Assembly: GCF_023715885.1 (NCBI RefSeq)
Contig: NZ_JAMBOY010000001.1
Location: 310,001 to 374,000, forward strand
Source of the DNA: Microbacterium hydrocarbonoxydans
GTDB taxonomy: Bacteria; Actinomycetota; Actinomycetes; Actinomycetales; Microbacteriaceae
Direction: 5' to 3'
DNA: 64,000 nucleotides
The notes under the pieces are model-generated. The model ran no database searches, was not told the origin of the DNA, and saw only the letters and a list, made by a program, of their open reading frames with translations. Position 1 is the stretch's first letter; each line of letters opens with the position of its first letter. This document shows, in pieces, positions 30,971 to 38,940 of this stretch. A program made the translations under genes and the position numbers.

Positions 30971-31249
30971 TCAGCCGACGAGCGGTCCGACCGCCCCGGA
31001 TCGAGAGGATGCCGCGACGGCGGCCTTCGCGTCATCCAGGTCAGAGAAGACTCCGATCACGTCGGACCGAGGTCCGGAGGCTTCAAAGCCCCGACCGGGG
31101 ACGACCGTGATCGATCCGAGGTACTGCAGCCCGTCGTTGCCGACGTGGAAGCCGGGCTCGACCTCGACCCACAGCCCGCGCGGCGTGGCGACCGCACGAG
31201 TGCGTGCTCCTGCCGCGGCGCGTGCCGCGACTCCGATCCGCTTCGACAT
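30971..31249 (-). CDS. Small hypothetical protein next to DUF7882 gene
   Basis: A 92-residue protein with a basic N terminus, a central LWVEVEPGFHVGNDGLQYLGSI and a helical C terminus rich in Ala/Ser. No family recognised; the middle looks like a small beta domain. It follows the DUF7882 gene with 2 nt between them, so the two are probably expressed together. Confidence 0.55.
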   Translation of the reverse strand: MSKRIGVAARAAAGARTRAVATPRGLWVEVEPGFHVGNDGLQYLGSITVVPGRGFEASGPRSDVIGVFSDLDDAKAAVAASSRSGAVGPLVG

Positions 31250-31251
31250 CG

Positions 31252-31575
31252 TCAGGCGCTCATGGCGTGGAGCTGCGGGGCAGCCGCCACCTCCGCGAAC
31301 TCGGCACGGGTGAGGTCGAGACCGCCCGAGGAGTTCGCGGCGTTCATCATCTTGACGAGCAGCGCGCGATCGATGGGCGACTCCTCCTCCATGACGAATC
31401 GCAGCGGGATGGCCGCCTGCACCCACAGCGTCTCGACGCCGGCGGGAGTGTGAAGCGTGAGTGCGAACGACTCGTTGCGTCGGAGCTTGGTCAGCGTGAC
31501 GGCTCGGACGTGCGTCAGAGTCTCGTCCTCGACGTCGATCGCCAGTGTCGAGTTCCCGTAGGTCAGGTGTCCCAT
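31252..31575 (-). CDS. DUF7882-like protein
   Basis: A 107-residue protein of a family common in Microbacteriaceae, sometimes misannotated as an ATP-dependent DNA ligase. Family-like features: MGHLTYGNSTLAIDVEDETL at the start, the ESFALTLHTPAGVETLWVQ strand pair and MMNAANSSGGLDL near the end. ATG 31575 is preferred over 31587 because GGGAG lies 6 nt upstream. It has the CTAG-N5-CTAG palindrome in its promoter. Function unknown. Confidence 0.75.
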   Translation of the reverse strand: MGHLTYGNSTLAIDVEDETLTHVRAVTLTKLRRNESFALTLHTPAGVETLWVQAAIPLRFVMEEESPIDRALLVKMMNAANSSGGLDLTRAEFAEVAAAPQLHAMSA

Positions 31576-31614
31576 CGTGTCTCCCATCCCGTGGTTGCTT
31601 CGACGTTTAGATTA

Positions 31615-31627
31615 CTAGGTAACCTAG
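31615..31627. promoter_or_regulatory. CTAG-N5-CTAG site 1
   Basis: CTAGGTAACCTAG, a perfect palindrome 40 bp upstream of the DUF7882 start and close to the 3' end of the neighbouring MarR gene. Same architecture as sites at 32153 and 35192. Candidate MarR operator. Confidence 0.6.
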
Positions 31628-31655
31628 CTAAATGCCAGCGGAGGGAAATTTCGGG

Positions 31656-32108
31656 TCACGACAGGTCGCTGATCTCCTCCGTCAACCGACGCAGGAAGCG
31701 AGAGACGACATCGCTCTGCTCGGGCGTGAACTCGCTCGCGATGTCTTCGATGCGCTGCGTAAGGTCGTCGACCGGAGCGTTCGCGTCGCGCAGCGACGGC
31801 CGGAGCACCTTCGACCGGGCGTCCTGCGGGTGCGGTGCGACGACGACCTGTTCCCGCTCTTGCAGACGGCGGAGGATGCTGGTCACCGCGGCGGTGCTGA
31901 CGTTGAGATGCGCGGCGAGATCACCGGGCGTTGCCGGCGAGTCCGCCGGCGCCTCGGAGATGAAGCGCATGGCCTCACGGTCGGTGTCGTTGGGCGCCCG
32001 GCGCAGAGACAGTCTGCGGGCGAGCTGCGACTCGGCACGACGGAGATCGTCGACACGATCCACCAGCTCGCGCGTGGTCACCTGCGTCGCGTCCTTGATA
32101 TCGGTCAT
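31656..32108 (-). CDS. MarR-family regulator 1
   Basis: A 150-residue winged-helix regulator: helix LRRAESQLARRLSL, the HTH TPGDLAAHLNVSTAAVTSIL and the wing LQEREQVVVAPHPQDARSKVL. Start ATG 32108 after a GGGGGTGA stretch. Divergent from a small-protein/MarR2 operon. The CTAG-type palindrome at 32153 lies between them, and site 1 is just beyond its 3' end. Probably controls this local set. Confidence 0.9.
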   Translation of the reverse strand: MTDIKDATQVTTRELVDRVDDLRRAESQLARRLSLRRAPNDTDREAMRFISEAPADSPATPGDLAAHLNVSTAAVTSILRRLQEREQVVVAPHPQDARSKVLRPSLRDANAPVDDLTQRIEDIASEFTPEQSDVVSRFLRRLTEEISDLS

Positions 32109-32152
32109 TCCGTCACCCCCTGACGCGACAATTCTACAAGAGAACCACGTAA

Positions 32153-32165
32153 CCAGGCAGGCTAG
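32153..32165. promoter_or_regulatory. CTAG-N5-CTAG site 2 (one mismatch)
   Basis: CCAGGCAGGCTAG between the divergent MarR1 and small-protein/MarR2 genes fits CTAG-N5-CTAG with one change in the left half. Likely autoregulatory operator. Confidence 0.5.
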
Positions 32166-32229
32166 TGATATGAGATGCACGGCACGTCGTTAACGGGTGA
32201 GAGGATGGACTCCTGTCGGAAGGGACGCC

Positions 32230-32469
32230 ATGGGAAAGCGATTCACGCCCGAAGACGCCGGATACATCCTGTACTCCGACGTCATCGAGCGTCTGCGCGC
32301 GCAGTTCCCGACGGTTCCCGAGTGGCGTCTCGAGCAGATCGTCACCGCCGAGAACGAGGCGATCACCGGAGGGATGCTGAGCATCGTCCCCGAGGAGGTC
32401 GAAACCGGAGCTGTCGAGATGCTCACGCGCGAGGAGAATCGCATGAGTGACGACGACGAGGTGGCCTGA
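32230..32469 (+). CDS. Small helical protein ahead of MarR2
   Basis: A 79-residue helical protein; YILYSDVIERLRAQFPTVPEWRLEQIV resembles the three-helix-bundle dimerisation domain found in small actinobacterial proteins. GGAAGGGA precedes ATG 32230. Its TGA overlaps the MarR2 ATG (TGATG), so it is translationally coupled to that regulator. Role unknown. Confidence 0.6.
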   Translation: MGKRFTPEDAGYILYSDVIERLRAQFPTVPEWRLEQIVTAENEAITGGMLSIVPEEVETGAVEMLTREENRMSDDDEVA

Positions 32470-33029
32470 TGTCCCAGTCTCCCGAGGAATTCACCCGGTC
32501 GGGTTACTGGTATCCCGACGCCGAGTCAGCGAGCACCGTCGACGTGCTCAATCTGCTGCGCCGCTATCGATCGGCCGAGACCGCGATGCGTGCGCGCACT
32601 CGTGCATCGATGAAGATGAACGAGACAGACCTCGTCGCGCTGCGGTTCCTGCTGCGCGAGCAGCGCGCCGGCCGCATCGTGCGCCCCATCGACATCGCCC
32701 GGATGCTCGACATCTCCACGGCATCCACCACCACCCTCATCGACCGTCTCGAGAAGGGAGGTCACGTGCGCCGTGAAGCGCACCCGACCGACCGCCGCGC
32801 GGGCGTGGTCGTGCCGACCGTGAGCAGCGACGACGAGGTGCGCGAGACCCTCGGCGCCATGCACCGCCGCATGCTCGCCCTCGTCGACGAGATGAGCGAT
32901 AAGGAGCGCGCGGTCGTGACACGGTTCCTCGCCGGCATGACGTCGGCGATCGAGGAGGCCTCCGACCTCGATCAGGAGTTGCGCGATGTCATCCGCGACC
33001 ACGAGGAATCGGAGTCGTCGGGCGAATAG
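32469..33029 (+). CDS. MarR-family regulator 2
   Basis: A 186-residue MarR protein: the HTH RPIDIARMLDISTASTTTLIDRLEKGGHV and wing RREAHPTDRRAGVVVP are clear. It has an extra 25-residue N terminus and an acidic C terminus. Together with MarR1 it brackets the palindrome at 32153; either or both could bind it. It ends 10 bp from the convergent ProP-like gene. Confidence 0.9.
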   Translation: MSQSPEEFTRSGYWYPDAESASTVDVLNLLRRYRSAETAMRARTRASMKMNETDLVALRFLLREQRAGRIVRPIDIARMLDISTASTTTLIDRLEKGGHVRREAHPTDRRAGVVVPTVSSDDEVRETLGAMHRRMLALVDEMSDKERAVVTRFLAGMTSAIEEASDLDQELRDVIRDHEESESSGE

Positions 33030-33038
33030 CGCCCGACC

Positions 33039-34583
33039 TCAGGCTTTCTCTGGCTGCTGCTCGTCGGACTCCACCCGCTCCGGGAAGAGCTCGTCGAGGT
33101 CGAGGTCGGGGTTCTCGTCCTGTGTCTCCACGAGCGCGATCGCCTCTTCCTCGGTCTGCACGCTGGGCATCGCGCCAGGCAGCGGTCGACGGGCGGACTC
33201 CTTCAGCACGACGACAGCGATGAATCCGGCGATCGAGGTGCCGATCACGTAGAAGGCGGGCGCCAGCGACGAACCGGTCCACTGCACCAGCGCCTCCATC
33301 ACGACCGGCGCCGTGCCGGCGAAAAGCGCCACTGCGAGGTTATAGGAGATGCCCATACCGCCGTACCGCGAGGAGGTCGGGAACAGCGCGGGCAGGGAAG
33401 ACGCGAGGTTCGCGACGTAGAACGTGACGGGGAAGGCGAGCAGCACGAGGCCGAGCACGGTCGACCAGATCGCCCCGTGCATCATGAACAGGAACGCGGG
33501 CACGGCGAAGACGATCGCCGAGACGGAGCCGATGAAGAGCACCTTCCGCCGACCGATGCGATCGGAGAGGCGACCGGTCAGGGGGATGCACAGCGCCATC
33601 GCTACGAGCACCGGCAGCGTCAGCAGGGTGCCGTGCACCTCGTCGTAGCCGAGTGTGCCGGTGAGGTACGTGGGCATGTAGGACGTCAGGGCATAGCCGA
33701 CGGTGTTGGCGGCGGCGACGAGCACGAACGCCGTCAGCAGCTCGCGCCAGTACGAGCGGATCAGAGCGATGACACCCTTCGGCGCGTCGGGTGAGGCCTG
33801 GGCTTCGTCGGCCGCGCGCTTCGCCGAGTCCTGAGCTTCCTGGAAGGCGGGGGTGTCCTCGATCTTGAGCCGGAAGTAGATCGCGACCGCGCCCAGCGGC
33901 AGGGCGACGAGGAACGGGACGCGCCATGCGAACCCCTGCATGACGTCGGCGGAGAGGGTGAGCTGCAGGATCGAGACGAACGCCGCACCCACCGCGAAGC
34001 CCATGTACGAGCCGAGGTCGAGCAGTGACGCGTAGAAGCCGCGGCGGCGGTCGGGGGCGTATTCCGTGATGAAGGTCGTGGCACCGGCGTACTCCCCTCC
34101 GGTGGAGAAGCCCTGCGCGAGCTTGAGGACGATGAGCAGGATCGGCGCCCAGACGCCGATGACCGAGTAATCGGGCAGCACGCCGATGAGGAAGGTGGCC
34201 GCCGCCATCATGATCAGGGTGAACGCGAGGATGCGCTGGCGCCCCAGGCGATCGCCGAGCTGGCCGAGCACGATGCCGCCCAGCGGACGCGCGACGAACG
34301 TGACGGCGAACACGCCGAGCGAGAACAGCGACTGCGCACCCGCCGACGCGTCGGGGAGGAAGGCGCGACCGATGATCACGGCGAGGTAGCCGTACACGCC
34401 GATGTCGTACCACTCCATGAGGTTGCCGACCACGGTGCCTGCGACAGCTCGCCGCAGCATCGGGCGGTCGACCACGGTGACGTCGTCGACGGTGAGCCGA
34501 CGGGGCTCCTCGGCGTCTTTCACGAGGCCGAAGCGACGGCCCAGCCGACGCCACAGCGATTCGCTCTTCACGGATTCCGACAT
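33039..34583 (-). CDS. MFS metabolite/H+ symporter (ProP-like)
   Basis: A 514-residue transporter of the metabolite:H+ symporter family, which includes ProP (glycine betaine/proline) and ShiA. Signature motifs: GNLMEWYDIGVYGYLA in helix 1, GQLGDRLGRQRIL in loop 2-3, and LKLAQGFSTGGEYAGATTFI. A 60-residue acidic cytoplasmic tail (PDLDLDELFPE) follows the last helix. Context with CsbD and a BCCT carrier supports osmolyte uptake, but the exact substrate is uncertain. Confidence 0.88.
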   Translation of the reverse strand: MSESVKSESLWRRLGRRFGLVKDAEEPRRLTVDDVTVVDRPMLRRAVAGTVVGNLMEWYDIGVYGYLAVIIGRAFLPDASAGAQSLFSLGVFAVTFVARPLGGIVLGQLGDRLGRQRILAFTLIMMAAATFLIGVLPDYSVIGVWAPILLIVLKLAQGFSTGGEYAGATTFITEYAPDRRRGFYASLLDLGSYMGFAVGAAFVSILQLTLSADVMQGFAWRVPFLVALPLGAVAIYFRLKIEDTPAFQEAQDSAKRAADEAQASPDAPKGVIALIRSYWRELLTAFVLVAAANTVGYALTSYMPTYLTGTLGYDEVHGTLLTLPVLVAMALCIPLTGRLSDRIGRRKVLFIGSVSAIVFAVPAFLFMMHGAIWSTVLGLVLLAFPVTFYVANLASSLPALFPTSSRYGGMGISYNLAVALFAGTAPVVMEALVQWTGSSLAPAFYVIGTSIAGFIAVVVLKESARRPLPGAMPSVQTEEEAIALVETQDENPDLDLDELFPERVESDEQQPEKA

Positions 34584-34642
34584 GATGCTCTTCTCTCGTT
34601 CTCCCCCGGGCCCGCGCGCCCATCACGCGCGGAAAAAGCAGA

Positions 34643-34670
34643 CGGGGAGGCGGCTCGCGCCGCCTCCCCG
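34643..34670 (-). terminator. Intrinsic terminator of csbD-like gene
   Basis: CGGGGAGGCGG (34643-34653) pairs with CCGCCTCCCCG (34660-34670) around a 6-nt loop. On the minus strand it is followed by CTGCTTTTT, a proper U-tract. It sits 16 bp after the csbD-like stop. Confidence 0.85.
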
Positions 34671-34685
34671 CACTGTGCGTCCGCC

Positions 34686-34859
34686 TCAGTTCTTGAAGGC
34701 GTCCTTGACGTTCTCGCCGGCCTTCTTGGCATCGGCCTTGACCTGGTCGGCCTTGCCCTCGGCCTCGAGCTTCTCGTTGTCGGTCAGCTTGCCGACCGCT
34801 TCCTTTGCCTTGCCGGAGATGTCCTGCGCGGCGTTCTTGATCTTGTCATCGAGTCCCAT
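34686..34859 (-). CDS. CsbD-like stress protein
   Basis: A 57-residue CsbD-type protein (MGLDDKIKNAAQDISGKAKEAVG), Lys/Ala/Glu-rich and predicted helical and unstructured in solution. Relatives are general-stress proteins. Start ATG 34859 with GGGAAG upstream. It has its own terminator. Located between the ProP-like carrier gene and a small membrane protein gene. Confidence 0.9.
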   Translation of the reverse strand: MGLDDKIKNAAQDISGKAKEAVGKLTDNEKLEAEGKADQVKADAKKAGENVKDAFKN

Positions 34860-34904
34860 GAGGGCTTCCCTTCTCTCTTCCAACGGTGGCCTGCGGCCTG
34901 CAGT

Positions 34905-35168
34905 TCACTGCTGCAGAAGCTGTGTGACGATGACGGTCATCAGCGGCGCGGATGCCGCGGCGACGAGCACCATGAGCCCTGCCGCGCCGAGGATCTCGCG
35001 CGGCGGGCGAGCGGAGACGAGGGACGCGCGATCGATCCCGATCACGCGTCCCACGGCCTCGCTGGCGGGGAGCGGCGCGAGGCTGGCCGCATCCGTGAGC
35101 GTCGACGTCGCGTCATGTGGGGCCGTATCGACGCGAGCGGGGGAATTCGCTGCTCCGGACATATCCAT
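34905..35168 (-). CDS. Small membrane protein
   Basis: An 87-residue protein with a polar N-terminal 60 residues and one hydrophobic C-terminal helix (ILGAAGLMVLVAAASAPLMTVIV). No family recognised. It starts 24 bp from the CTAG-N5-CTAG palindrome at 35192, so it may belong to the same regulon. It precedes csbD-like by 45 bp. Confidence 0.55.
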   Translation of the reverse strand: MDMSGAANSPARVDTAPHDATSTLTDAASLAPLPASEAVGRVIGIDRASLVSARPPREILGAAGLMVLVAAASAPLMTVIVTQLLQQ

Positions 35169-35191
35169 CACCTACCTTCGATGGCAGGTTA

Positions 35192-35204
35192 CTAGATGAA
35201 CTAG
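35192..35204. promoter_or_regulatory. CTAG-N5-CTAG site 3
   Basis: CTAGATGAACTAG between the small membrane protein gene (minus) and the SDR/DUF2867 gene (plus); another CTAG half-site follows at 35217-35220. Same spacing as sites 1 and 2. Confidence 0.6.
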
Positions 35205-35255
35205 TGATTTGGAAGCCTAGTGATCTTTCGGCATCCTCGGCATACCCTCGGAAGC

Positions 35256-36839
35256 ATGACGGAGCTCACCCAGCCCACCGGCCACGAAGAAGCGCTGCGC
35301 GCCGTCCTGCGCGAAGACGGATCAATGCCCCGAGCGCTGGTCCTCGGAGCCACCGGATACATCGGCGGGCGTCTCACCCCGCGACTCCTGAACGCCGGCT
35401 ACCGCGTGCGCATTCTGGCGCGCGACGCGGCGCGCGCGGCATCCTTCCCCTGGGGATCCGACTCCGAGATCGTCGAAGGATCCGCCGATGACGAGGATGC
35501 CGTCCGCGAGGCCATGCGCGACGTCGACGTCGTGTACTACCTGATCCACTCGATGTCGGCGGGCAAGGGCTTCGAGGAGAGCGATGAGCGCGCAGCGCAG
35601 ACGGTGGCGGATGCCGCGGCGGCCGCCGGCGTGCGTCGCATCGTGTACCTCGGCGGACTGCATCCCGACGACGTGAAGCTCTCGGCGCACCTGCGGTCCC
35701 GAGTGCATGTGGGCGAGATCTTCCTGCGGTCGGGCGTCCCGACGCTGGTGCTGCAGGCCGGTGTCGTGATCGGCTCCGGGTCGGCGTCGTTCGAGATGAT
35801 CCGCCACCTGACCGAGGTGCTGCCGTATATGCCGGCGCCGAAGTGGGTGCGCAACCGCATCCAGCCGATCGCGGTGCGCGACGTGCTGCACTACCTGCTC
35901 GGCGCCGCCCGCGTCGACGACGACGTGAACCGCGCCGTCGACATCGGCGGACCCGACGTGCTGCGTTACGGCCAGATGATGAACGGCTATGCCGTCGAGG
36001 CGGGCCTCCCCCAGCGCGCGATCGCCGCGCTGCCGGTGCTGACTCCCGGCCTTGCCTCGCACTGGGTGAACCTCGTCACCCCCGTGCCGCGCTCGATCGC
36101 CCGGCCGCTCGTGGCGTCGCTGCAGAACGAGTGCATCGTCAAGGACCGCGCCGTCGACGACCTCATCCCCCGCCCCGAGGGTGGACTCACGCCGTACCGT
36201 CAGGCCGTGCGGGCGGCCCTCGGGCGCGTGAACGCGGATGCGATCGAGACGAGCTGGCAGGACTCCGAGGTCTCCGGCGCGCCGAGCGATCCCCTGCCGA
36301 GTGACCCCGAATGGGCGGGGCGCATGGTCTTCACGGATGCGCGATCGCTGAAGACGAGCGCCCCGGTCGACGGCCTGTGGCGCGTGATCATCGGCATCGG
36401 CGGAGAGAACGGGTGGTACTCGTCGCCGTTCCTCTGGGCCGTGCGCGGCTGGATGGACCGCCTCGTCGGCGGTGTCGGCCTGCGCCGAGGACGACGGAAC
36501 AAGGCCGCAGCGCGGGTCGGCGACGCGATCGACTTCTGGCGCGTGGAGGCCGTCGAGGAGCCGGGGCGCGACACCGAGGCGTCGGACGCGAGCGGCGGGC
36601 TCCTGCGGCTGCGGGCCGAGATGAAGGTGCCCGGCGAGGCGTGGCTCGAGCTGCGCGCACTGCCCGACGGCACCGGCGCGCGCTACGAGCAACGGGCCGT
36701 GTTCTTCCCCCGCGGACTCGCCGGCCGCCTGTACTGGTTCGCCGTGCTGCCCTTCCACGGGTTCATCTTCGCCGGCATGGCGGCGCGCATCACGGCCGCC
36801 GCGGAGAAGCCGGTCGAGACCGTCGCGCCCGGGCACTGA
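35256..36839 (+). CDS. NAD(P)H-binding SDR with DUF2867 domain
   Basis: A 527-residue two-domain protein. The N-terminal atypical-SDR Rossmann domain has ALVLGATGYIGGRL and lies between about 25 and 310. The C-terminal half (about 345-520) matches the DUF2867 pattern, including GLWRVIIGIGGENGWY and the end FAVLPFHGFIFAGMAARI. Such proteins are thought to act on membrane or small-molecule redox substrates; function is unproven. ATG 35256 chosen. It follows site 3. Confidence 0.85.
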   Translation: MTELTQPTGHEEALRAVLREDGSMPRALVLGATGYIGGRLTPRLLNAGYRVRILARDAARAASFPWGSDSEIVEGSADDEDAVREAMRDVDVVYYLIHSMSAGKGFEESDERAAQTVADAAAAAGVRRIVYLGGLHPDDVKLSAHLRSRVHVGEIFLRSGVPTLVLQAGVVIGSGSASFEMIRHLTEVLPYMPAPKWVRNRIQPIAVRDVLHYLLGAARVDDDVNRAVDIGGPDVLRYGQMMNGYAVEAGLPQRAIAALPVLTPGLASHWVNLVTPVPRSIARPLVASLQNECIVKDRAVDDLIPRPEGGLTPYRQAVRAALGRVNADAIETSWQDSEVSGAPSDPLPSDPEWAGRMVFTDARSLKTSAPVDGLWRVIIGIGGENGWYSSPFLWAVRGWMDRLVGGVGLRRGRRNKAAARVGDAIDFWRVEAVEEPGRDTEASDASGGLLRLRAEMKVPGEAWLELRALPDGTGARYEQRAVFFPRGLAGRLYWFAVLPFHGFIFAGMAARITAAAEKPVETVAPGH

Positions 36840-36918: not shown

Positions 36919-36939
36919 CTCGTCCGGAGACCGGCGCGG

Positions 36940-38940
36940 CTAGCGCTCGGTGGGGGCGGCGCCGCCGGACTCGTCGACCGACTCGGCCGTGTCCTCCGCG
37001 AGCGCCGCGGGCGGATCGGTCGGGGCAGGGGATGCCGCAGCATCCGCCCCGGCATCCGTCTCCGCATCCGGGATGACGTCGATCGCCTCGGTGGCCGTCG
37101 CGTAGACCTCGGCGAGGCTGTCGTCGACCTCCGCCTCGTCGATCCAGGCGAGATCGTCCTCCGAGTGGTCGTACTCGACGGGGACGAGCGCGAAGTCGTC
37201 GCCGTACTCCTCGAGCCCGGCCATGACGCTGTGCCGCACGGCCATCCGCGCATAGCGCTCGCGCAGGATCATGGGGTCACGCCGCAGATCCTTCATGAAC
37301 GCGACCATCATGAACGCCATGATCACCGCGAACGGCAGCGCCGCGATGATCGTCACGTTCTGCAGCGAGCGCAGACCGCTCCCCTCCTCGCCGCTGACGA
37401 GCAGCACGGCGGCGATGACTCCGACGAGCACACCCCAGACGACCGCGACCCAGCGCGCCGGGTCGGGGCGGCCCTGCTGTGACAGCGTGCCCATCACGAG
37501 GGATGCCGAGTCGGCTCCGGTGATGAAGAAGATCGAGATCAGCAGGATCAGCAGGATGCTGGTGATCAGCGGGAACGGGAGGTTCTCGAGCACGCCGAAC
37601 AGCACCTCCTCCGGCGGGTCGACCGTGAGGCCGGCGCCGTCCATCTGCTGCTGGATGGCCGTGGTGCCGAAGATCGCGAACCAGATGAGCGAGATCGCGG
37701 CGGGCACGACGATGACGACCGAGACGAACTGGCGCAGCGTGCGGCCGCGAGAGATCTTCGCGATGAACATGCCCACGAAGGGCGACCACGAGATCCACCA
37801 CGCCCAGTAGAAGATCGTCCAGCTGGAGAGGAACATCTGCGCCTCATCGCCCTGGGATGCCGAGCGCGCGATCATCTGCGGCAGGTCGCCGAGGAACTGC
37901 ACGGCCACCGACGGGATGACGTTGAGGATCAGCAGGGTGGGGCCGACGAAGAACACGAAGAACGCGAGCACGAGGGCCGCGACCGCGTTGATGTTCGACA
38001 GCGCCTGGATGCCCTTGCTCACGCCCGAGACGGCGGAGGCGATGAAGCACGCGGTGAGCACGGCGATGACCGCGATGAGGATGCCGTTGCCCAGCGGGCC
38101 GGCTCCCGTGACGATCTCGACGCCGTGGCCGATCTGGAGGGCTCCGAGGCCCAGCGACGCCGCGGTGCCGAACAGCGTCACGATGATCGAGAAGATGTCG
38201 ATCGTGCGGCCGAGCGGTCCGGTGGTGCGGCCCTCTCCGAGCAGCGGAGCGAAGATCGACGAGATCAGCGGAGTGCGGCCGCGGCGGAAAGCTCCGTACG
38301 CGATCGCGCCGCCGACGAGCGCGTAGAAGGCCCATGCCTGCGGACCCCAGTGGTAGAGCACCTGCGCCTGAGCCGTGTGCATCGCCTCGAGTGTGTTCGC
38401 CTCGACCGTGCCCGGCGGCGGGCTCTCGAAGAACGTCAGCGGTTCGGCGGCGCCCCAGAAGACGAGGCCGATGCCCATGCCTGCGGCGAACAGCATCGAG
38501 ATCCACGAGAACATCGAGAACTCGGGCTCCTCGTCGTCGCGACCGAGCGGGATGCGTCCGTAGCGACTGAAGCCGATGAAGAGCATGAACACGAGGATGA
38601 CGGTGGCGATCGTCGTGAAGAAGAAGCCGAAGTACTCGACCACCCACGCGAGCACGGTCGACGTCGTACCCGCCAGGTTGTCGCCCGCGAACACGCCCCA
38701 CGCGATGAACGCGATGGTGAGGGATGCCGCGACACCGAAGACCAGCGGGTCGGTGCGGTACGTGCGGCCGGTCTCCTCGACCGAGACGCCTGGCACCAGG
38801 GCCGGGTGCACGCTGCGCGGCGGGACAGCGGCGATGTCGCGGACGATCTTGCCCGCCTGCATCCCGGCCTGCCGCAGGGTTCCGGTGTGGGTCTTCTGAA
38901 CGTCGGTCCGCGAGTGGGGTTTCTCGTCAGGAGTGTCCAT
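36940..38940 (-). CDS. BCCT-family betaine/choline transporter
   Basis: A 666-residue carrier with 12 predicted helices (residues about 75-555). BCCT signatures: FSMFSWISMLFAAGMGIGLV with the Na+/substrate GMGIG loop, and the FYWAWWISWSPFVGMFIA tryptophan box of helix 8. A 110-residue acidic, Ala-rich cytoplasmic tail follows, where osmotic sensing is located in BetP-like proteins. Probable substrate is glycine betaine, choline or ectoine; which one cannot be read. Start ATG 38940, an upstream ATG at 38960 being possible. Confidence 0.93.
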   Translation of the reverse strand: MDTPDEKPHSRTDVQKTHTGTLRQAGMQAGKIVRDIAAVPPRSVHPALVPGVSVEETGRTYRTDPLVFGVAASLTIAFIAWGVFAGDNLAGTTSTVLAWVVEYFGFFFTTIATVILVFMLFIGFSRYGRIPLGRDDEEPEFSMFSWISMLFAAGMGIGLVFWGAAEPLTFFESPPPGTVEANTLEAMHTAQAQVLYHWGPQAWAFYALVGGAIAYGAFRRGRTPLISSIFAPLLGEGRTTGPLGRTIDIFSIIVTLFGTAASLGLGALQIGHGVEIVTGAGPLGNGILIAVIAVLTACFIASAVSGVSKGIQALSNINAVAALVLAFFVFFVGPTLLILNVIPSVAVQFLGDLPQMIARSASQGDEAQMFLSSWTIFYWAWWISWSPFVGMFIAKISRGRTLRQFVSVVIVVPAAISLIWFAIFGTTAIQQQMDGAGLTVDPPEEVLFGVLENLPFPLITSILLILLISIFFITGADSASLVMGTLSQQGRPDPARWVAVVWGVLVGVIAAVLLVSGEEGSGLRSLQNVTIIAALPFAVIMAFMMVAFMKDLRRDPMILRERYARMAVRHSVMAGLEEYGDDFALVPVEYDHSEDDLAWIDEAEVDDSLAEVYATATEAIDVIPDAETDAGADAAASPAPTDPPAALAEDTAESVDESGGAAPTER

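Follow-up and report, generated by a model that had tools for sequence, protein, structure and literature searches.

The 64-kb window analyzed here (the whole stretch of DNA, G000:C11:310001-374000, where G000 is the genome under study) comes from Microbacterium hydrocarbonoxydans and contains a gene cluster in which the 13-bp motif CTAG-N5-CTAG recurs in three intergenic regions. An original prediction, made from the letters alone, read these sites as an operator shared by three promoter regions and proposed a local MarR regulon linking DUF7882, CsbD-region and redox genes. Comparative evidence favors a small MarR regulon joining a DUF7882 gene, a CsbD-containing unit and a short-chain dehydrogenase/reductase (SDR) gene, for which the second of the two MarR proteins of the locus (MarR2) is the probable reader. 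In order along the window, the cluster consists of the following features.

30971..31249, minus strand: 92-amino acid (aa) open reading frame (ORF) downstream of the DUF7882 gene, probably on the same transcript; no Pfam match; a homologous ORF lies beside DUF7882 in part of the loci compared below
31252..31587, minus strand: DUF7882 protein gene (PF25355, E 3.7e-26)
31612..31630 (core 31615-31627), no strand: putative operator O1 in the DUF7882 promoter, TTACTAGGTAACCTAGCTA, core CTAGGTAACCTAG; exact CTAG-N5-CTAG
31656..32108, minus strand: MarR1; MarR and MarR_2 Pfam matches above cut-off
32150..32168 (core 32153-32165), no strand: putative operator O2 between MarR1 and the 79-aa ORF, TAACCAGGCAGGCTAGTGA, core CCAGGCAGGCTAG; one mismatch, one arm being intact and one decayed
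32230..32469, plus strand: conserved 79-aa ORF that overlaps the MarR2 start and matches nothing in Pfam or NCBIfam
32469..33029, plus strand: MarR2, the proposed operator reader; MarR Pfam match above cut-off
33039..34583, minus strand: major facilitator superfamily (MFS) transporter, ProP-like (metabolite:H+ symporter type); best NCBIfam match NF007927 at 468.8 bits, below the cut-off of 544; Pfam Sugar_tr
34686..34859, minus strand: CsbD-like gene (PF05532, E 3.9e-19)
34905..35171, minus strand: small, probably membrane protein of 88 aa (memb88), no family match; first gene of the memb88-CsbD-MFS unit
35189..35207 (core 35192-35204), no strand: putative operator O3 in the divergent memb88/SDR promoter region, TTACTAGATGAACTAGTGA, core CTAGATGAACTAG; exact CTAG-N5-CTAG
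35217..35220, no strand: third CTAG half-site beside O3, part of a degenerate second operator (35205-35223, a 2-mismatch match)
35256..36839, plus strand: SDR-type NAD(P)-binding protein with a C-terminal DUF2867 (PF13460 and PF11066)

The three coordinates first given for the 13-bp architecture (31615, 32153 and 35192) were all correct, including the single mismatch at 32153. That site had been placed between two MarR genes; the 79-aa ORF (32230-32469) separates it from the second. The site at 35192 does lie between the small membrane protein gene and the SDR/DUF2867 gene, and to this we add the further CTAG at 35217. As judged from gene order and strand, memb88, CsbD and the MFS gene would form an operon. 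The "redox" label attached to part of the regulon derives only from the SDR fold.

The motif is rare in the genome and conserved in homologous loci

CTAG is as rare as had been supposed: the window contains 21 copies versus 184 expected from base composition (an approximately 9-fold under-representation), and six of these lie inside or adjoin the three sites. Throughout the 3.48-Mb genome the exact CTAG-N5-CTAG is found at seven places, two of which are 31615 and 35192, versus ∼0.4 expected at the real CTAG frequency. The extended form TNACYAGNNNNNCTRGTNA, itself derived from the three sites, occurs with at most one mismatch only at these sites, and with at most two mismatches at 48 places. 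A looser script pattern also matched GC-rich spots, such as window position 36931, which were excluded from all counts. Frequent occurrence of the motif in coding DNA elsewhere, which the original prediction named as evidence against itself, was not seen in this genome.

Next, we compared homologous loci. Close orthologues of MarR1 (59-81% identity) are present in 14 of 148 other Microbacterium genomes sampled, with MarR2 on the divergent side in each. Together with the own locus and seven further contigs, all found via MarR1, they gave 22 loci for footprinting; the seven contigs were taken from 11 MarR1 loci, all from Microbacterium, after four (L191, L196, L198 and L199) had been dropped as the same contigs as L053, L059, L055 and L066, respectively. 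An exact CTAG-N5-CTAG is found before DUF7882 in 22/22 loci, own included. The 25-bp core of O1 averages 1.74 bits/column versus 0.52 in its flanks, across loci whose DUF7882 proteins are only ∼50-98% identical to that of the window. O3 is exact in 15/22 loci, the seven without it being L060-L066; at L061 a different exact site precedes CsbD by 0.2 kb, and L060 has the same site, with no CsbD match found at the locus. All 15 O3 regions carry the third CTAG 16 bp away. Because the flanks of O3 are conserved too (1.41 bits), it is weaker evidence than O1. As for O2, 13 loci fit a looser pattern; in the other nine, inspected by eye, one arm is CTAG and the second is altered. The motif is most likely a conserved operator.

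The window scan alone would have been compatible with a chance similarity of short AT-rich intergenic sequences, since its four matches with up to one mismatch equal the 4.2 expected in dinucleotide shuffles and are not significant. With only seven exact sites genome-wide and conservation in 22/22 loci, chance can be dismissed with near certainty; conservation alone already refutes it and shows that the motif is real.

The sites adjoin predicted promoter elements

Two putative promoter elements accompany O1, with the following coordinates.

31609..31614, minus strand: putative -10 box (TAATCT) in the promoter of DUF7882, directly adjacent to the operator arm; TAATCT in 19, TAATAT in two and TAACCT in one of the 22 loci
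31633..31638, minus strand: putative -35 element CTGGCA, weakly conserved; the 18-bp spacer would be filled by the operator

In these predicted promoters, the 19-bp palindrome abuts a -10-like box in 22/22 loci, and O2, the site of the regulators' own genes, has one decayed arm. On its memb88-CsbD side, O3 similarly reads CTAG-TAACCT or CTAG-TAATCT in 15/15 loci. If these promoter predictions are right, RNA polymerase would bind where the operator lies. The main client of the site at 35192 seems to be the memb88-CsbD-MFS side, where a -10-like box abuts the operator arm; the SDR promoter would share the operator.

The site is specific to one DUF7882 gene of G000

The PF25355 family is present in 140 of 149 Microbacterium genomes, with 2-17 matches each. 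In G000 there are 12 DUF7882 matches, two of which are adjacent pieces at C21:1489-1774. Only the MarR-linked gene has the site (0/11 for the others), and no exact site lies within the 3 kb examined at any of the other DUF7882 loci read in the genus (the best 30). We therefore reject an operator common to all DUF7882 genes. These data also bear on the idea that a regulator of another kind binds the sites, or that they are a promoter element rather than an operator. Although every protein's binding here is a prediction, the motif is a palindrome with fixed spacing, tied to MarR genes in many loci, and other DUF7882 promoters do without it, which makes this idea very improbable.

The one paper naming DUF7882 that we found in the open-access literature searched dates from 2025 (PMC12227055); it introduced the family as a putative cytoplasmic CryoRhodopsin transducer. 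The window protein belongs to the same family, but there is no rhodopsin gene beside it. Indeed, G000 has no match to the rhodopsin family PF01036, which rejects a rhodopsin link in this genome, and among the 149 genomes only four have one. The DUF7882 family is strongly expanded in Microbacterium, mostly without rhodopsin genes, and since 140 genomes have DUF7882 and four have rhodopsins, in most of the genus it must work without a rhodopsin partner.

The same architecture marks a predicted CrtR-like carotenoid regulon

The pattern THRCTAGNNNNNCTAGYDA occurs in 96 of the 149 genomes, ranging from none to four sites per genome. Of at least 75 sites listed in the genus, we read 66; the nine left out lie in genomes with the MarR1 locus. 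At all 66, at least one gene of the following types starts within 400 bp and points outward: MarR (30), idi (27; isopentenyl-diphosphate isomerase, named by NCBIfam), MMPL (20), DHA2 MFS (11), DUF7882 (6), GGPP-synthase-like (1) and CsbD (1). The queries for idi, MMPL, DHA2, GGPP synthase and CrtR-like genes were drawn from five of the 66 loci, which match by construction. Across the wider family, 48 of 249 genomes (27 of 85 genera) contain the pattern; at 19 of the 29 loci read there (one per genome, 28 from other genera), a MarR2- or CrtR-like gene is no more than 1.5 kb away. In other actinobacteria, crt, idi or mmpL genes are oriented divergently from the genes of CrtR orthologues (PMC7432914). 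The 66 sites reproduce this picture, and we take the shared architecture, which has other flanks there, to mark the predicted CrtR-like carotenoid regulon of the genus. G000 has its own CrtR-like MarR gene (G000:C21:410587) beside idi- and GGPP-synthase-like genes, with a site at C21:410349 in which one arm is decayed, and a DHA2 gene with an exact site at C21:44283.

At the MMPL and DHA2 sites (L074, L079, L088, L119 and others), the first start codon found by script lies 1-3 bp past the 19-bp site in 17/20 MMPL and 10/11 DHA2 loci, a spacing that suggests leaderless transcripts.

According to three papers (PMC5401885, PMC7432914 and PMC6739363), CrtR of Corynebacterium glutamicum and its orthologues in actinobacteria share with the system proposed here a MarR-type autoregulated repressor, a divergent promoter and an operator overlapping -10/-35, autoregulation and the operator position being predicted in our case. 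MarR2 groups with Microbacterium MarR proteins encoded beside idi, much as CrtR orthologues are found beside crt, idi or mmpL. In contrast, the predicted window targets are DUF7882, CsbD-MFS and SDR genes rather than carotenoid genes, and the gene context of CrtR orthologues is seen at C21:410587 and not at MarR2, whose neighbors are the 79-aa ORF, MarR1 and the MFS gene. A further hallmark of CrtR orthologues is their release by geranylgeranyl pyrophosphate. The C. glutamicum site has been described as short palindromes, TTAA and AAATTT, with TTAA essential (PMC5401885), and another study reported no inverted repeats within a 52-bp footprint (PMC6739363). A TTAA-centered motif is not what the window sites show, their centers being GTAAC, ATGAA/TTCAT and GCAGG. 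Classical MarR/SlyA operators (PMC5526998 for SlyA; E. coli MarR by alignment) are likewise palindromes of ∼19 bp; they overlap promoter elements, as is predicted for the window sites, and are read by a similar recognition helix, but they differ from the CTAG-N5-CTAG half-sites of the window. Within the open-access literature searched, as far as its text was available, we found no earlier report of a CTAG-N5-CTAG MarR operator or of a DUF7882 regulator.

MarR2 is the more likely reader

In a tree of 82 MarR rows (midpoint root, no Corynebacterium CrtR sequence included), one clade (99/95) unites the MarR2 orthologues with the MarR genes found close to DUF7882 elsewhere in the genus (L073, L084 and L113). 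It joins the CrtR-like clade (89/62) at 94/88 and is placed beside, not inside, it. A 100/98 branch separates these two clades from MarR1 and its relatives. The positions of the long branches L067, L136 and L141 are unsure. In the same loci, identity to the window proteins is 82-99% for MarR2 and 60-91% for MarR1.

The recognition helix of MarR2 is ISTASTTTLIDRL in all 22 loci. In the CrtR-like clade it is STASTTKLLDRL or STASTTKLIDRL in 25/26 rows, the exception being L136 (Thr), and L067, the own CrtR-like protein, also has one of these two. The helix of MarR1 is of the STAAVTSILRRL type. MarR2 has the CrtR-like helix with a single change, Lys to Thr. The CrtR-like Lys aligns with an Arg in the helix of E. 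coli MarR, which we take to be the position of SlyA Arg65. In SlyA, the single base contact is from Arg65 to a guanine (PMC5526998). The base preceding CTAG is G in 115/118 arms at 59 CrtR-type sites (L136 included), versus A in 29/30 O3 arms and 25/44 O1 arms, these arms being counted over related sequences rather than independent events. A strict code in which a non-Lys helix means A before CTAG was rejected, since non-Lys helices go with TAGCTAG arms in other genera (L250, L267-L269 and L278) and Microbacterium L136 (Thr) has G arms. Only the rule that Lys goes with G holds, as a hypothesis based on few independent changes.

The arms also bear on whether the own CrtR-like repressor reads the window sites, which would make the locus part of the carotenoid regulon. 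The architecture is the same, and G000 has both the one-arm-decayed CrtR-like site and the exact DHA2 site. However, the base before CTAG differs (G at CrtR-type arms, mostly A at O3 and O1), and CrtR-type centers are mostly ATAAG, ATAAA or CTAAA (41/59) versus GTAAC or TTCAT types at the window sites, so that we regard this possibility as improbable.

A better, although still unlikely, alternative is that MarR1, alone or with MarR2, reads the operators, the two proteins competing or forming a two-input switch. MarR1 adjoins O1 and O2 in all 22 loci, which were chosen so. On the other hand, CrtR-like proteins share the architecture, and it is MarR2 that groups with them, not MarR1; the recognition helix of MarR1 differs, and sites persist without a close MarR1. 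Indeed, G088 (L133, before CsbD) and G117 (L139, an exact site upstream of MarR2) have a site and MarR2 without a close MarR1. In G021 (L140) the site before DUF7882 is decayed, MarR2 being present without a close MarR1.

These comparisons point to MarR2, a CrtR-like paralogue, as the candidate reader. Through the sites it would probably act as the repressor of DUF7882, of the MarR units and of the memb88-CsbD-MFS unit, with the SDR gene and, in a subclade, perhaps a TspO-like gene added. Several observations weigh against this. The grouping of MarR2 with CrtR-like proteins has only 94/88 support in a midpoint-rooted tree where the own CrtR-like L067 falls outside both clades. L169 and L171 are MarR2-like modules with a 79-aa ORF and DUF7882 nearby, yet have no site, a point that also speaks for MarR1. 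So does G085 (L125), in which the DUF7882 site is beside a MarR1-like gene and no MarR2-like gene was found in the 5 kb read. In G092 (L142, with a MarR2 of 68% identity), no clear site was seen. O2 keeps one intact arm only, O3 is missing in 7/22 loci, and MarR1 is present in all 22 footprinted loci by construction, as these were found with it. In view of the 94/88 support, the rooting and the siteless L169 and L171, we hold the MarR2 reading with moderate confidence.

We infer the following mechanism. A MarR2 dimer would bind the palindrome TTACTAG-N5-CTAGYNA, which at O1 and O3 would fill the -35/-10 spacer and abut the -10-like box (CTAG-TAATCT), and RNA polymerase would be blocked at the DUF7882 and memb88-CsbD-MFS promoters. 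Repression may reach the SDR promoter via the third half-site (35217), and O2, the weaker site, would make MarR1 and the unit of 79-aa ORF and MarR2 autoregulated. Release of MarR2 would be triggered by a ligand that is probably hydrophobic or linked to stress.

The CrtR-like kinship of MarR2 is a new point beyond the local MarR regulon. More tentatively, and with considerable doubt, MarR2 could be a CrtR-like duplicate without the guanine-reading lysine. The genus would then have two parallel, hardly cross-talking CTAG-N5-CTAG regulons, one for carotenoids/efflux (Lys, GCTAG) and one for a DUF7882/CsbD/ProP-like/SDR/TspO-like membrane-stress set (Thr, ACTAG), the second perhaps sensing an isoprenoid or light-linked signal. 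One member of the large uncharacterized DUF7882 family gains a candidate regulator, operator and partner genes, and hence a testable role. The CrtR-like repressors of the genus gain a candidate operator that is a sharp palindrome, whereas a short TTAA-centered element is all that the work on Corynebacterium describes. The Lys/Thr difference suggests how a single residue could keep the targets of two paralogous repressors separate.

A distal site precedes a TspO-like gene

One of the exact sites outside the window, C11:282110, lies 76 bp upstream of a TspO-like gene, a tentative name because the Pfam score of 23.8 is just under the cut-off of 24 and NCBIfam gives none. Among 30 orthologue loci read, the upstream site is found in eight, which are exactly the eight genus genomes with O3 (G000, G001, G122, G125, G126, G128, G135 and G144), and in none of the other 22, including the MarR1-locus genomes G023, G029, G040, G060, G066 and G116. 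By this distribution, the site looks like regulon growth in one subclade, or it may belong to CrtR rather than MarR2. The proposal of a local MarR regulon is kept in a modified form, in which the two MarR proteins are not equally involved, MarR2 being the likelier reader, and the regulon is possibly not only local.

Other exact sites and neighboring genes

Of the five exact sites other than O1 and O3, three precede the TspO-like gene, the DHA2 MFS gene and a conserved 156-aa ORF, respectively. The fourth is in a divergent start region, and near the fifth there is no ORF of at least 90 aa with coding-like third positions. Inspection of C20:580827, C22:169030 and C11:795921 revealed no regulator link. 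In the 12 genomes searched, C20:580827 has a counterpart in G125 and C22:169030 has counterparts in G066 and G116. The sites at G000:C20:580827 (L069 1328) and G125:C11:341309 (L214 1510) have the center AATTA/TAATT and lie upstream of the same ORF, presumably hot-dog-like, in both genomes. At G000:C22:169030 (L071 1031), G116:C10:109991 (L217 1492) and G066:C13:692, a GC-rich CTAG-CGGCC-CTAG is kept in a divergent start region, flanked by two genes that we take to resemble a glycosyltransferase and an SDR gene.

The 79-aa ORF is found repeatedly in the company of MarR2-like and DUF7882 genes, L113, L169 and L171 included. After the SDR gene, and not far from the ProP-like MFS gene, the minus strand at ∼36950-38900 of the window encodes a transporter that presumably resembles a BCCT betaine carrier.

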